A stretch of 64,000 bases of DNA, from positions 248,001-312,000 of the forward strand of contig NZ_VKKH01000004.1 in NCBI RefSeq assembly GCF_007197995.1, in the 5' to 3' direction. A program made the translations under genes and the position numbers. The notes under the pieces were generated by a model. It did not search any database. It was not told where the DNA came from and saw only the letters and a list, made by a program, of their open reading frames with translations. The DNA is from Aliiglaciecola sp. M165. Its GTDB lineage: Bacteria > Pseudomonadota > Gammaproteobacteria > Enterobacterales > Alteromonadaceae. Of this stretch, positions 2,973 to 62,359 are shown in pieces; within the stretch, counting starts at the first letter, position 1; every line of letters begins with the position of its first letter.

Positions 2973-3522
2973 CTTTGAGCATCACTTGCTAGTTGCAATG
3001 CCAAACATGGATGATCCCTATTTCGCCCGATCGTTAACCTACATCTGCGAACACAATGACAAAGGTGCGATGGGGTTAGTCATCAATCAGCCGGTTGGGA
3101 TGTCACTAAAAGAACTTATTGAACAAGCGGATAAAGACGCCATTGTATTGCAAGAAAAAGCAGAAACGATTGTTCTTGCCGGAGGGCCTGTCAGCCAAGA
3201 TAGAGGGTTTATTCTGCATACCAGTCAACCTGGTTGGAGTTCTAGTTTGCAGTTGACACCTGAAATTATGATCACAACATCCAAAGACATTCTTTCTGTG
3301 CTGGGCAATGAAAATGCCCCCGAGAAAAGCCTTGTAACCTTGGGTTATGCTGGTTGGACAGCGGGGCAATTGGAAGAGGAAGTACAACAGAATTCCTGGC
3401 TGATTGTCGAAGCAGACACCGACATATTATTTGATGTTCCCATTCATAAAAAGTGGGAGGAAGCCGTTCGTAAACTTGGTATAGATGTCTGGCAACTTGG
3501 CCCTGATGCTGGGCATGCCTAA
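2965..3522 (+). CDS. yqgE: YqgE/AlgH family protein
   Basis: The product is about 185 residues and opens with DSFEHHLLVAMPNMDDPYF, followed by the family hallmark YICEHNDKGAMGLVINQP and a GGPVSQDRGFILH stretch. The function of this conserved DUF179 family is not established. An in-frame ATG lies at 2932, but the ATG at 2965 has GGAG six bases upstream and matches the family N-terminus, so it was chosen. The gene sits between gshB and ruvX as in many gammaproteobacteria, overlapping gshB by 8 nt. Confidence 0.93.
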   Translation: MDSFEHHLLVAMPNMDDPYFARSLTYICEHNDKGAMGLVINQPVGMSLKELIEQADKDAIVLQEKAETIVLAGGPVSQDRGFILHTSQPGWSSSLQLTPEIMITTSKDILSVLGNENAPEKSLVTLGYAGWTAGQLEEEVQQNSWLIVEADTDILFDVPIHKKWEEAVRKLGIDVWQLGPDAGHA

Positions 3523-57954: not shown

Positions 57955-58686
57955 TTAGTTTCTCGCTTCCAACATTAATTGTTTCATATCACGCACCGCT
58001 TTATCTAAACCGTCAAAGGCAGCACGGGCGATAATTGCATGGCCAATGTTCAACTCTATGATCTCAGGTAAAGCAGCAATAGGTTTGACATTATGATAGT
58101 GCAAACCGTGTCCTGCATTAACCTTTAAACCAATAGAGTCTGCGTAGGAAATACCTTTTTTAAGTTTCTCTAATTCGACTTGCATCTGTTCTTCGCTTTT
58201 TGCTTCAGCGTATTGCCCTGTATGAATTTCAATATAGGGTGCACCTGCCTCCTTGGCCGCATCTATTTGAGCCAGTTCGGCATCAATAAACAGCGACACA
58301 AGAATATCGTCAGCAGCTAAGCTGTCACAGGCACTACGGATTTTGTCGAGATTTCCTAACACATCCAAACCACCTTCGGTGGTCAACTCTTCTCGTTTTT
58401 CAGGCACCAGGCAGCAAAACTCCGGCTTTGTTTGTGAAGCAATAACCAACATTTCTTCGGTCACTGCCATTTCTAAGTTCAACCGAGTATTGATGGTGTC
58501 TCTTAGTAGGCGAACATCTCGATCGTTAATGTGCCTGCGATCTTCTCTTAAATGCACAGTGATACCGTCCGCTCCAGCTCGTTCAGCGATATCAGCAGCG
58601 TGCACAGGATCTGGGTAATGTGTTCCTCTGGCATTGCGCAGTGTTGCAATATGATCAATGTTCACACCCAGATAAATATCTTTCAT
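57955..58686 (-). CDS. pdxJ: Pyridoxine 5'-phosphate synthase
   Basis: This 243-residue TIM-barrel enzyme condenses 1-deoxyxylulose 5-phosphate with 3-amino-2-oxopropyl phosphate. It has [67 protein letters not shown] and [12 protein letters not shown]. The ATG at 58686 has GGAG eight bases upstream; a frame extending to 58803 lies inside recO and is not homologous. It overlaps recO by 4 nt. Confidence 0.97.
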
Positions 58687-59414
58687 TTTGTTTGCTCCAT
58701 TTTTTGGAATAATTCTCTGCTTTTTAGAGGTTTGTCGCCAAGTAAGGGTTTTAGTGCCATCCGTGTCACACGTTTGGCTGTGCTCAGGCTTTCCTTGTCC
58801 CATTCGTATCTGGCAGCCTTTAGTACGCTCTCACCACTGAAACGGTTTTTGGATTTATCTGCATTTGCTAACAATTGAAATCCCTGCTCCAAGGTAAAAT
58901 AATACTCGCCATTTGGTTCAATCTCAGTGTTTGATTGCAGGTCTTCATGCCAAGAAAAACCGTAACCTAAATCGGCCAATAAATGAATTTCAAATTCACG
59001 CAGGACCGCTTCCATCGACTGGTTTTCAGACAATCTGAGCACACTGGCTAAATACAGATCATAGGTGACAGGAAACGCTATGTCAGCAGGTAACAATCGA
59101 TTTAGCAATTCGTTTAAATACAATGCGCAAAATAGTGCATTGCCTTGCAAGGTAAATCCACGACCATCGCTTTCTACCTGTACCAAAGTTTTTAAATCCG
59201 ATTTTCCGCTAAACACAAGCTGCAATGCCTGAAAAGGTTGTAACAAGCTTTTCTTTTCTTGGCTTTTTGCACTTTTCCCGCCATGAACACCGCGACAAAC
59301 CGCGGATAGTCGTCCATGTTCTCGGGTAAAAAAGTCGACAATAGAACTTGTTTCACGATAGGGACGACGATGCAAGACCACACCTGTTAGGATATTTTGC
59401 ATACTGTTAAGCAT
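58683..59414 (-). CDS. recO: DNA repair protein RecO
   Basis: The 243-residue protein has the N-terminal OB fold ([37 protein letters not shown]) and a helical C-terminal domain containing [13 protein letters not shown]. RecO helps load RecA on SSB-coated gaps. era and rnc, which normally precede recO, are not upstream here; an uncharacterised gene takes that place. An internal start at 59402 is possible. Confidence 0.94.
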
Positions 59415-59868: not shown

Positions 59869-60516
59869 ATGAGAAGATGGGCAATTGTTGTGGTGATAGC
59901 CTGTGTATTGGTCACTACAGGGTGCGACACTGAGTCCACAAAAACGGATTCGATGCTTTATCGCGAAGCAGCGATCCGGGACGCGCAAAAACCGCTTAAA
60001 AAAGCCTTTAAGATACTGGATCAAAAAATCAGAAGTAATCCTAAAGACAATTTAGATGTTCTCCTTATCGCGCAAAACGCGATGGTCGAATCTCGTCAAA
60101 TATACAAAAAGAATAACATCGTCAATTTTGAAGATGACAAACTCACGGAGTTAGAAAATTATTTCGAATCGCTGCAACCAGAGTTGGTGGAATTCGCGTC
60201 TGACTTACTTATAAACGTAGTAAATCGAACCGAGCTATTGCGCACACAAATAGAAGAAGCCAAGACGCAGCCCTACAGTGCCAGAGGAAATGACACCTCA
60301 CAACTCGTCGATTTTTTAGGTCAGAAATATAATGAAGACGTGAAAAGCTGTTGTTTGCAAAAGTTGTCGCAGATCGATCAGCTCCTGCAACGAGAAGCAG
60401 CTCAGTATCGTGAGTTACTCATTCTGATCCGCTCGATAAATTCCGAACTGGGTAACGTCATTAAAGAAAAAGGCTACGCAAATAAACTAAAAAGGCGGAT
60501 CTTAGCCATAACATAA
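59869..60516 (+). CDS. Uncharacterised lipoprotein
   Basis: The 215-residue protein has a lipoprotein signal (VVIACVLVTTGC) and then a mostly helical, charged body (REAAIRDAQKPLKKAFKILDQKI, LLRTQIEEAKTQPYS, QYRELLILIRSINSELGNVIKEKGYANKLKRR). I do not recognise a family. It is probably attached to a membrane and facing the periplasm. It is followed by the guanidine riboswitch promoter, so it is unlikely to share that transcript. Confidence 0.65.
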   Translation: MRRWAIVVVIACVLVTTGCDTESTKTDSMLYREAAIRDAQKPLKKAFKILDQKIRSNPKDNLDVLLIAQNAMVESRQIYKKNNIVNFEDDKLTELENYFESLQPELVEFASDLLINVVNRTELLRTQIEEAKTQPYSARGNDTSQLVDFLGQKYNEDVKSCCLQKLSQIDQLLQREAAQYRELLILIRSINSELGNVIKEKGYANKLKRRILAIT

Positions 60517-60559
60517 CCGTTTGCTAGGGGATTTTGATTTAAAGACAGAGGTAAATGCA

Positions 60560-60588
60560 TTGACACTGCTAGGATAATTAAAAATAAT
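60560..60588 (+). promoter_or_regulatory. Promoter of the riboswitch-exporter transcript
   Basis: A consensus -35 TTGACA (60560-60565) and an AATAAT -10 (60583-60588) are separated by the optimal 17 bp. Transcription would begin near 60595, just before the first riboswitch hairpin. Confidence 0.8.
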
Positions 60589-60605
60589 GGGGTTTCAATG
60601 CTGAA

Positions 60606-60660
60606 GTGAGGACGACCTCACCGCTCTATCTCATTCGGGGACGACTCCAAGATGGAGTTG
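60606..60660 (+). ncRNA. Guanidine-II (mini-ykkC) riboswitch
   Basis: Two hairpins with ACGA loops are seen, the hallmark of this class. P1 is GTGAGG-ACGA-CCTCAC (60606-60621, six perfect pairs). P2 is GGGG-ACGA-CTCC (60637-60648, one G-U), after a 15-nt linker. The 3' arm of P2 can instead pair with the ribosome binding site: ACTCCA (60644-60649) is complementary to TGGAGT (60653-60658), extendable to 8 bp. Guanidine binding, by holding P2 together, would free the GGAG for translation. The gene downstream is a SugE/Gdx-type exporter, the typical partner. Confidence 0.88.
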
Positions 60661-60664
60661 TGTT

Positions 60665-60979
60665 ATGTCTTGGTTTTATCTTGTTCTTGCGGGTATTTTC
60701 GAAGCTGGCTGGCTTATTTCAATTATCAAATCCGAATCCTTTTCCAAACCTCAATTTATTGTAATTGGCGTTTTATCTACGGCTCTGAGTCTAACGCTAT
60801 TTTCAATCTCGTTATATTAGATCCCAATTACAGTGGCCTACTTAGTTTGGTTAGCCGTTGGCGCGGTGTCATTGGTGTTAAAAGATGTTTTTGTCAATGG
60901 CACACCTATTTTAATTCAACAATTGTTCTTTATATCGCTGATAGTAATTGGCATAGTCGGTATAAAAGTCAGTCTTTAG
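60665..60979 (+). pseudogene. sugE: SMR-family SugE/Gdx-type guanidinium exporter interrupted by one in-frame TAG
   Basis: From the ATG at 60665 the frame reads SWFYLVLAGIFEAGWLIS, with the essential SMR glutamate (Glu13), for 51 residues and then meets TAG at 60818-60820. The same frame continues without shift as IPITVAYLVWLAVGAVSLVL and LIVIGIVGIKVSL to a TAG at 60977-60979. The combined 104 codons with four helices match the SugE length. The stop lies in the loop after helix 2. Either the gene is recently inactivated, or the base is an error, or the codon is read through. The ribosome binding site GGAG (60654-60657) is controlled by the riboswitch. Confidence 0.85.
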
Positions 60980-60995
60980 TCAGGAGCAAATCGAC

Positions 60996-61394
60996 GTGTC
61001 GGGTGAGACTAATTTAGATATTTTGTTGAAATCGATGAGCCCTCAATTGAATGAGGGCGAATTTGTTTTTGTATCCATTGAAAATGGCCGTTATGGGCAG
61101 TTAGGTGAACTTGCCCCTATCGCTATGTTTATGGAAACCGAAGGCATGACCCTTGTTGTTCCAAAATCAACTGCCGATGACAGTGGGTTTAGCTACAATT
61201 CAACCTTTTGCTGCATTACGTTGACGATTCACTCTAGCTTAGACGCTGTGGGCTTAACTGCGGCATTCGCCAGTAAGCTAGCTGAAAAAGACATCAGTGC
61301 GAACGTCATTGCCGGTTACTACCATGATCACATCTTTGTTCAGAGTGAAAAGTCAGAGCAGGCAATGAGTGCACTGAATGAATTCAGAATATAG
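60996..61394 (+). CDS. ACT-domain protein (COG3602-like)
   Basis: The 132-residue protein appears to carry two small ACT-like domains: VFVSIENGRYGQLGELAPIAMFMETEGMTLVVPKSTAD, then CCITLTIHSSLDAVGLTAAFASKLAEKDISANVIAGYYHDHIFV. ACT modules bind amino acids or related ligands. The start is GTG at 60996 with AGGAG nine bases upstream. It is 16 nt after the exporter frame and probably shares its transcript, so it could be part of a guanidine response. It may also be an unrelated passenger. Confidence 0.82.
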   Translation: MSGETNLDILLKSMSPQLNEGEFVFVSIENGRYGQLGELAPIAMFMETEGMTLVVPKSTADDSGFSYNSTFCCITLTIHSSLDAVGLTAAFASKLAEKDISANVIAGYYHDHIFVQSEKSEQAMSALNEFRI

Positions 61395-61441
61395 TGTATG
61401 GTTTTACCGCCGTAGCGAATCGTGAAGGTCTATTAGATGGC

Positions 61442-62203
61442 TTATTGTAATTTCCACTTTTGCATGATGCGCTGATATTCACCGTTTGCTTTAAGCGCAA
61501 TTATGCCAGTTTGAAGTGTCTCAACCACTTGGGCATTTGTGTTAAGACCGGTTGCCATTTCTAGCTGAAAATTAAGCTCCTCAACATCGTAAATGGGTTC
61601 GATTTCTGAAGCATCGAGGCCAACACTCTGTATTTCATATTTACCTGTTTGTACATTGGCAATGACCATATCTATTCGACCTTTAAACAACATGGTCCAA
61701 AGCTGTTCCGTGCTCGATACTAACGCCAAGTTATCGTTTTCGATAAACCCCCTCTTTAAAAGGTAATTGGCGGCCCCGTAGCCGCGCACAGACCCCACTA
61801 AAAACTGTTTAGCTTGTTCGATACTTGTTAGCCTAATGTGTTTGTTTTTTGCCAGACGTATAAATGATGCACGCACCGAATGTACCTCGCCCAACCATTG
61901 AAAAAGAGGTTCTCTGCTACTGGTACGAAGTGCTGAAATGAGAATGACATTTGGTTCGTTTGCGGCTTGATGAATAGCTCTGGCCCACGGCAAATGTTCA
62001 ATAGTGGCATTGACTTGTGTGAGTTCAATTAACGATTTTGCTAAATCAAAATTAACACCTTGAGGCTCACCATTTTCATCAAGCCAATAATAAGGAGCCG
62101 CTATTTCGCTATAAAACCTAAGAATGTTTGGCTCATCGGTCGCTTTTACTTCGAAACCAATCAAGGCTAGCAACACAACTAAGCCTTTTCGAATAAAAAA
62201 CAA
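61442..62203 (-). CDS. Orphan periplasmic amino-acid-type substrate-binding protein
   Basis: The 253-residue protein has a signal peptide (GLVVLLALIGFEVKA) and the SBP_bac_3 fold: YYWLDENGEPQGVNFDLAKSLIELTQVNATIEHLPWARA, VGSVRGYGAANYLLKRG, LFKGRIDMVIANVQTG and the final YQRIMQKW. There is no permease or ATPase nearby. Many Alteromonadales carry such solo proteins; the ligand and role are unknown. Confidence 0.85.
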   Translation of the reverse strand: MFFIRKGLVVLLALIGFEVKATDEPNILRFYSEIAAPYYWLDENGEPQGVNFDLAKSLIELTQVNATIEHLPWARAIHQAANEPNVILISALRTSSREPLFQWLGEVHSVRASFIRLAKNKHIRLTSIEQAKQFLVGSVRGYGAANYLLKRGFIENDNLALVSSTEQLWTMLFKGRIDMVIANVQTGKYEIQSVGLDASEIEPIYDVEELNFQLEMATGLNTNAQVVETLQTGIIALKANGEYQRIMQKWKLQ

Positions 62204-62359
62204 AATTAATCTCCTGAGACGAAGCTCTATACTGGAAATTTCTAAATCGCCTACTAGTTAGGTGGTTCAATCGAATTTATTTAGAGGAGTACATACTATT
62301 GTGGTATCGGAGCAACAGCAATTATTTATGCAAATTAGTCTTAATGCCGGATTTAAACA

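Follow-up and report, generated by a model that had tools for sequence, protein, structure and literature searches.

A guanidine-II riboswitch upstream of an interrupted SMR exporter gene and an ACT-domain gene in Aliiglaciecola sp. M165

In the window, a stretch of 64,000 nucleotides from the genome of Aliiglaciecola sp. M165, a guanidine-II (mini-ykkC) riboswitch was found at the head of a gene pair encoding an SMR (Gdx-type) exporter and an ACT-domain protein. We consider it likely that the linker between the two hairpins of the riboswitch mainly holds the Shine-Dalgarno (SD) sequence and that the exporter gene has probably been inactivated, the switch and the ACT gene being sound. As a riboswitch, the element adds one member to a well-studied class, and both models of how its SD could be blocked are already in print. 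The locus stands out for a guanidine switch placed on a probably dead exporter gene, which is the only SMR gene that a PF00893 profile search found in the genome, and for its riboswitch-SMR-ACT gene order. Our literature search returned nothing on Aliiglaciecola riboswitches or on a guanidine-linked sugE pseudogene, and, on riboswitches with pseudogenes or premature stop codons, the papers listed did not appear to concern a case like this one.

A search of the window with the Rfam covariance models gave a match to Guanidine-II (RF01068) at positions 60604-60648 of the plus strand, with a score of 40.6 bits, where the cut-off is 32 (E = 1.2e-4 over the whole window and 1.3e-6 over the 701 bases at 60300-61000). 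No other Rfam family reached its cut-off within the 64 kb, and the element was the only Guanidine-II match found in the genome, in which the models for Guanidine-I and Guanidine-III (RF00442 and RF01763) gave no match. This is the search that the original prediction had asked for, and it confirmed the proposed identity; the two ACGA-loop hairpins described there were borne out as well. Hairpin P1 (60606-60621) has six perfect Watson-Crick pairs (60606-60611 with 60616-60621) closing the loop at 60612-60615, and hairpin P2 (60637-60648) has four pairs, one of them G-U (60637-60640 with 60645-60648), closing the loop at 60641-60644. Both hairpins showed covariation in an alignment of 14 leaders (the window's and 13 others), in which 140 of 140 pair cells were standard and four of the ten pairs (five cells) were altered on both sides, so that the conservation in relatives expected of a genuine riboswitch was found. 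These values and the covariation score were equalled by none of 500 shuffles, the count of further pair types being equalled by 64 of 500, and pairing fell to 40-66% when the partners were slid out of register. The folding energy of the leader was unremarkable (z = -0.75, with 46 of 200 shuffles folding equally well), and the case for the riboswitch therefore rests on the covariance-model match and the covariation.

The aptamer ends 16 bases before the SMR start codon, which places it directly before the ribosome-binding site of a guanidine-related gene. The SD region, AGATGGAGT (60650-60658), contains GGAG at 60654-60657 and is separated by a seven-base gap from the ATG at 60665. The promoter TTGACA-17-AATAAT predicted directly upstream was located at 60560-60588 on the plus strand, where it agrees with the consensus at 11 of 12 positions and stands as a consensus match only; sites with at least 9 of 12 matches numbered three in the 1.1-kb region, against a mean of 2.5 in its shuffles. 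A transcriptional switch was considered and rejected, the lone terminator-like match in the leader (60641-60661) being none other than the SD hairpin, followed by a weak T tail. Judged by the covariance-model match, the gene context and the P1/P2 covariation, the element is a well-supported and ordinary guanidine-II riboswitch before an SMR/Gdx gene, of a mechanism known in kind; it would be expected to bind guanidinium and to switch, and it is probably a translational ON switch.

The gene under its control is cut by a stop codon. From the ATG at 60665, the first part of the SMR gene (60665-60820, plus strand) runs for 51 codons to an in-frame TAG at 60818-60820, and the second part (60821-60979, plus strand) continues in the same frame to the native TAG at 60977-60979. 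The first part matched positions 1-50 of the PF00893 profile with 24.5 bits (cut-off 23.7), and the second matched positions 53-93 with 19.6 bits, which alone is below 23.7, as well as positions 53-103 of the SugE model NF008512 with 27.3 bits. Over both halves, with one TAG inside, PF00893 gave 48.3 bits (cut-off 23.7). The sequence thus has the profile match and the marker residues of a Gdx-type SMR (W16 and five more) and lacks the single open reading frame of a functional Gdx exporter. The prediction that the switch turns on translation of a SugE/Gdx exporter was made without mention of this stop; its first half, the ON switch, stands as probable, but the translation turned on here probably does not give an exporter.

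Relatives of the gene were found uninterrupted. The riboswitch-linked SMRs of genomes G002, G003, G005, G008 and G015 have no internal stop, and a genome scan showed an open SMR frame in 11 of the 12 loci of the subfamily to which the window SMR belongs (L045-L056), all 12 of which carry RF01068 directly upstream. The subfamily query was at least 63% identical to these 12 loci, compared with 34-42% to the scan's 34 other SMRs. With the subfamily profile, chains 8vxu and 6wk5, which we take to be Gdx-Clo, scored 70 bits and EmrE chains 33 to 38. The window SMR retains all six of the residues G10, E13, W16, S42, Y59 and W62, two of them past the TAG. It therefore resembles Gdx-Clo in keeping E13, W16, S42, Y59 and W62 across its two halves, and differs from it in being interrupted after codon 51 and in belonging to a marine subfamily. 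Excerpts of PMC7695847 describe E13, S42, W62 and Y59 as important for function; W16, by the same account, is conserved in Gdx proteins, whereas Qac proteins have another residue in its place.

Invariant positions of the subfamily were counted from ten intact members, L052 (which has an insertion), L053 and L054 being left out. The window SMR alters 11 of 39 invariant residues (4 of 20 before the stop and 7 of 19 after it), whereas each of the ten intact members alters 0 to 4 of 39 to 43. In a tree that had good support for 2 of its 14 inner branches and took in L054 (broken frame) as a 23-residue stub, the terminal branch of the window SMR had a length of 1.34, the median being 0.29. The window SMR was at most 54% identical to the subfamily members compared. 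The 11 changes suit relaxed constraint; yet L003, an uninterrupted SMR outside the subfamily, alters 15 of the same 39 residues, which weakens this sign of decay, and together with the identity of at most 54% it suggests that plain divergence may explain much. Retention of the six key residues fits a recent loss and would equally fit a protein still in use. From the sequence, the exporter gene is most likely an inactivated copy, so that the riboswitch probably yields no working exporter in this genome; we infer a loss of exporter function that is probably recent.

Two further broken SMR genes were seen in the genomes compared. In Colwellia maritima MSW7 (L054, about 2977-3290), the reading frame of a riboswitch-linked SMR of the subfamily is broken within the first codons, possibly through an assembly error, with the ACT gene open downstream. 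In an order-level relative with a genome of 1.7 Mb (G056), the SMR halves at L044, about 1360-1680, lie in different frames, and RF01068 was not matched in that genome.

Two readings would leave the exporter working. The stop was observed in a single draft assembly (4.61 Mb in 29 contigs), and a base-call error may have produced it, in which case the locus would be a wholly ordinary guanidine-II-Gdx operon with an intact exporter. Such a sequencing or assembly error would agree with an interruption of one codon between halves that share a reading frame, align to the profile in the expected order and retain G10, E13, W16, S42, Y59 and W62, and the 11 altered residues need not signal decay, given that the uninterrupted L003 differs at 15 of 39. 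The alteration of 11 of 39 invariant residues, on both sides of the TAG, where intact members alter 0 to 4, argues the other way; the genome was rated 100% complete with 0.01 contamination, a rating that says little on single bases. We regard an error as unlikely. That the gene functions despite its stop, by readthrough or by assembly of two half-proteins, is in our view highly improbable. The key residues kept in both halves would suit it, and assembly would be favoured by the position of the break, near the end of helix 2 and presumably between helix 2 and helix 3 of other SMRs. Inspection of the sequence by eye, however, revealed no start codon with an SD just past the TAG, and TAG looks like a normal stop here. 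Reading of TAG as a sense codon was rejected, since the ACT gene and the SMR gene itself both terminate with it, as do 10 of the 41 window ORFs of at least 200 codons (ORFs not vetted as genes). An inactivated exporter gene remains the reading that we prefer.

Two helices in the leader compete for the SD. The linker between P1 and P2 (60622-60636) contains a probable anti-SD at 60623-60631. When 60604-60667 is folded, the lowest-energy structure has this segment paired with 60650-60658; this form keeps both P1 and P2 and reached -21.7 kcal/mol. In the original prediction, it was the 3' arm of P2 that paired with the ribosome-binding site. That helix exists and is longer than had been described, with nine pairs including one G-U (60641-60649 with 60653-60661, covering 60641-60661 of the plus strand); it keeps P1 only and reached -20.4 kcal/mol, within 1.3 kcal/mol of the linker form, compared with -12.5 kcal/mol for P1 and P2 without either blocking helix. 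The P2-arm hairpin appeared in the lowest-energy fold of 60595-60667, and the linker helix in the folds of 60604-60680 and 60590-60680, in which, however, P1 gave way to pairing with the coding start. Because the two forms are nearly isoenergetic and the fold varies with the stretch taken, the energies do not decide between the helices.

In a swap test with 20,000 permutations, the linker (or the P2 arm) of every leader was paired both with that leader's native tail and with the tails of other leaders, and the pairings were compared. Of 38 leaders, 31 were used: L009 (a near-copy of L045) was left out, as were L067, L068, L075, L077 and L080 from the far set and L053 (a near-copy of L051) from the near set. 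L005, L006 and L010 never entered, being from the same genomes as L056, L046 and L045, and L012-L015 were not used in the leader tests because their next gene is not an SMR. The near set comprised 14 leaders, namely the window, 11 of the 12 subfamily loci L045-L056, L004 and L003. In this set, the linker paired with its own tail at a mean of -10.46 against -8.54 for swapped tails (sd 0.49), a result equalled by 2 of 20,000 permutations, whereas the P2 arm paired with its own tail no better than with swapped ones (2,564 of 20,000). The L003 exporter falls outside the protein subfamily, and the test was therefore rerun without it (13 leaders), giving 3 of 20,000 for the linker and 2,713 of 20,000 for the P2 arm; without both L003 and the window (12 leaders), the counts were 10 and 5,472. 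In the 17 other SMR leaders, the linker showed no preference for its own tail (8,895 of 20,000) and the P2 arm was weakly preferred (464 of 20,000). Against dinucleotide-shuffled tails, the sums over the 14 near leaders were -146.5 versus -74.2 (sd 6.9) for the linker and -61.5 versus -45.3 (sd 5.1) for the P2 arm, with 0 of 500 shuffles equalling either; the window and L045, with a few more leaders, supplied most of the P2-arm excess.

Within the exporter subfamily of the window, this co-change supports the P1-P2 linker as the SD-blocking partner and makes it the likelier blocker. Pairing between linker and SD is kept by the subfamily; a P2-arm helix, strong though it is in the window, is not generally kept. 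The mechanism of the original prediction, in which the P2 3' arm and loop (60641-60649) sequester the SD (60653-60661) until the ligand fixes P2, is thus possible for this leader but doubtful. In its favour are the length and stability of the hairpin, the window's own P2 arm, with which no swapped tail paired better and for which only 2 of 500 shuffled tails equalled the native one, and the weak preference among the other SMR leaders. A precedent is the overlapping hairpin between P2 and the ribosome-binding site suggested for Gloeobacter violaceus in excerpts of PMC5486947. The co-change in the subfamily did not bear it out as the SD blocker, its own-tail pairing failing to exceed that of swapped tails in any of the three near sets, and in L004 and L052 P2-arm pairing is absent (0.0 kcal/mol).

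The linker as anti-SD corresponds to the model given for E. coli guanidine-II in excerpts of PMC9300104 and PMC9094411, and an SD/anti-SD scheme is also drawn in a portion of PMC7544219. In P. aeruginosa, mutation of the putative P0 helix (C7, C8, C32 and C34) broke the switch to ON, according to an excerpt of PMC9561414; on our reading of its numbering, C32 and C34 are linker bases. The window shares with E. coli sugE/gdx and P. aeruginosa guanidine-II two ACGR-loop hairpins, a short linker, an SD just downstream and an SMR gene. It differs from them in a P2 arm predicted to block the SD nearly as well and in a controlled gene that carries an in-frame stop. With two competing SD-blocking helices in one molecule, the two published mechanisms could be compared side by side.

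In the mechanism that we propose, the SD would be held, when guanidine is absent, mainly by the P1-P2 linker (60623-60631 with 60650-60658), the P2-arm hairpin being a nearly isoenergetic alternative. Binding of guanidinium by the ACGA loops would lead P1 and P2 to kiss, draw out the linker and fix P2. Both blocking helices would then be disfavoured, and ribosomes would start at the ATG at 60665, only to stop after 51 codons at the TAG and release a product covering roughly half of a four-helix exporter. The SMR gene would be an inactivated copy, probably a recent one, between a riboswitch and a downstream ACT gene that both look sound.

The ACT-domain gene (60996-61394, plus strand, GTG start) is uninterrupted and matched PF10000 with 76.1 bits and PF13840 with 53.6 bits. 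An ACT gene lies downstream of the SMR gene in 10 of the 12 subfamily loci (L045-L054). A search with a profile of these ACT proteins gave a match at 11 of 51 SMR loci (L045-L054 and L004), always downstream of the SMR gene, and none at the other 40 within the stretches fetched. The order riboswitch-SMR-ACT was seen in Aliiglaciecola, Paraglaciecola, Colwellia, Pseudocolwellia, Marinomonas and an Oceanospirillaceae MAG, and is thus common to several marine genera; among the congeners, Aliiglaciecola lipolytica has an uninterrupted cassette. The papers listed in our literature search did not appear to treat this gene order. Relatives of the ACT protein occurred in 27 of 60 related genomes, in five of the 27 beside a riboswitch-linked SMR. 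In the other 22 the ACT gene stands apart from any such SMR; 15 of these loci were scanned and RF01068 was found at none of them, the riboswitch scans having been run on loci other than L085-L090. The window ACT protein was 65% and 62% identical to non-cassette relatives in G025 and G045, compared with 50% to the cassette copies of congeners, so the pairing of SMR and ACT could be ancient or could have come about repeatedly; the ACT tree is a sketch into which 9 of 19 ACT loci were taken, four of them cassette copies. The neighbourhood suggests the ACT gene as a candidate partner in guanidine physiology. The stronger proposal, that the ACT protein belongs to the guanidine regulon, unreported until now, and that the riboswitch is kept here, with the exporter broken, for the ACT gene alone, strikes us as speculative and distinctly unlikely.

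The gene pair lies in a stretch of 1,843 bases (60517-62359) flanked by a lipoprotein-like gene on one side and a MutT-like gene on the other. Matches to these two flanking genes are neighbours in six of eight congeners, where they overlap by 11 bases or lie up to 73 bases apart, and in G002 and G004 the two are split between contigs. The cassette may therefore have entered the site in the lineage of the window or have been lost from the others. A solute-binding-protein-like gene (PF00497) is also present between the flanking genes, at 61442-62203 on the minus strand. The protein encoded at 58683-59414 of the window is presumably RecO-like; its match in G004, a congener genome that is 59% complete, has one TAG inside (L126), perhaps a matter of draft quality.

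In 4 of the 14 genomes with RF01068, the riboswitch precedes, instead of an SMR gene, a long frame starting LIANRGAIA (L012, L013, L014 and L015), which to us looks like a biotin-dependent carboxylase. On a Legionella tunisiensis contig with a riboswitch-linked SMR (L072), Rfam also gave RAGATH-13 and RAGATH-32 at 2497-2799 on the minus strand.
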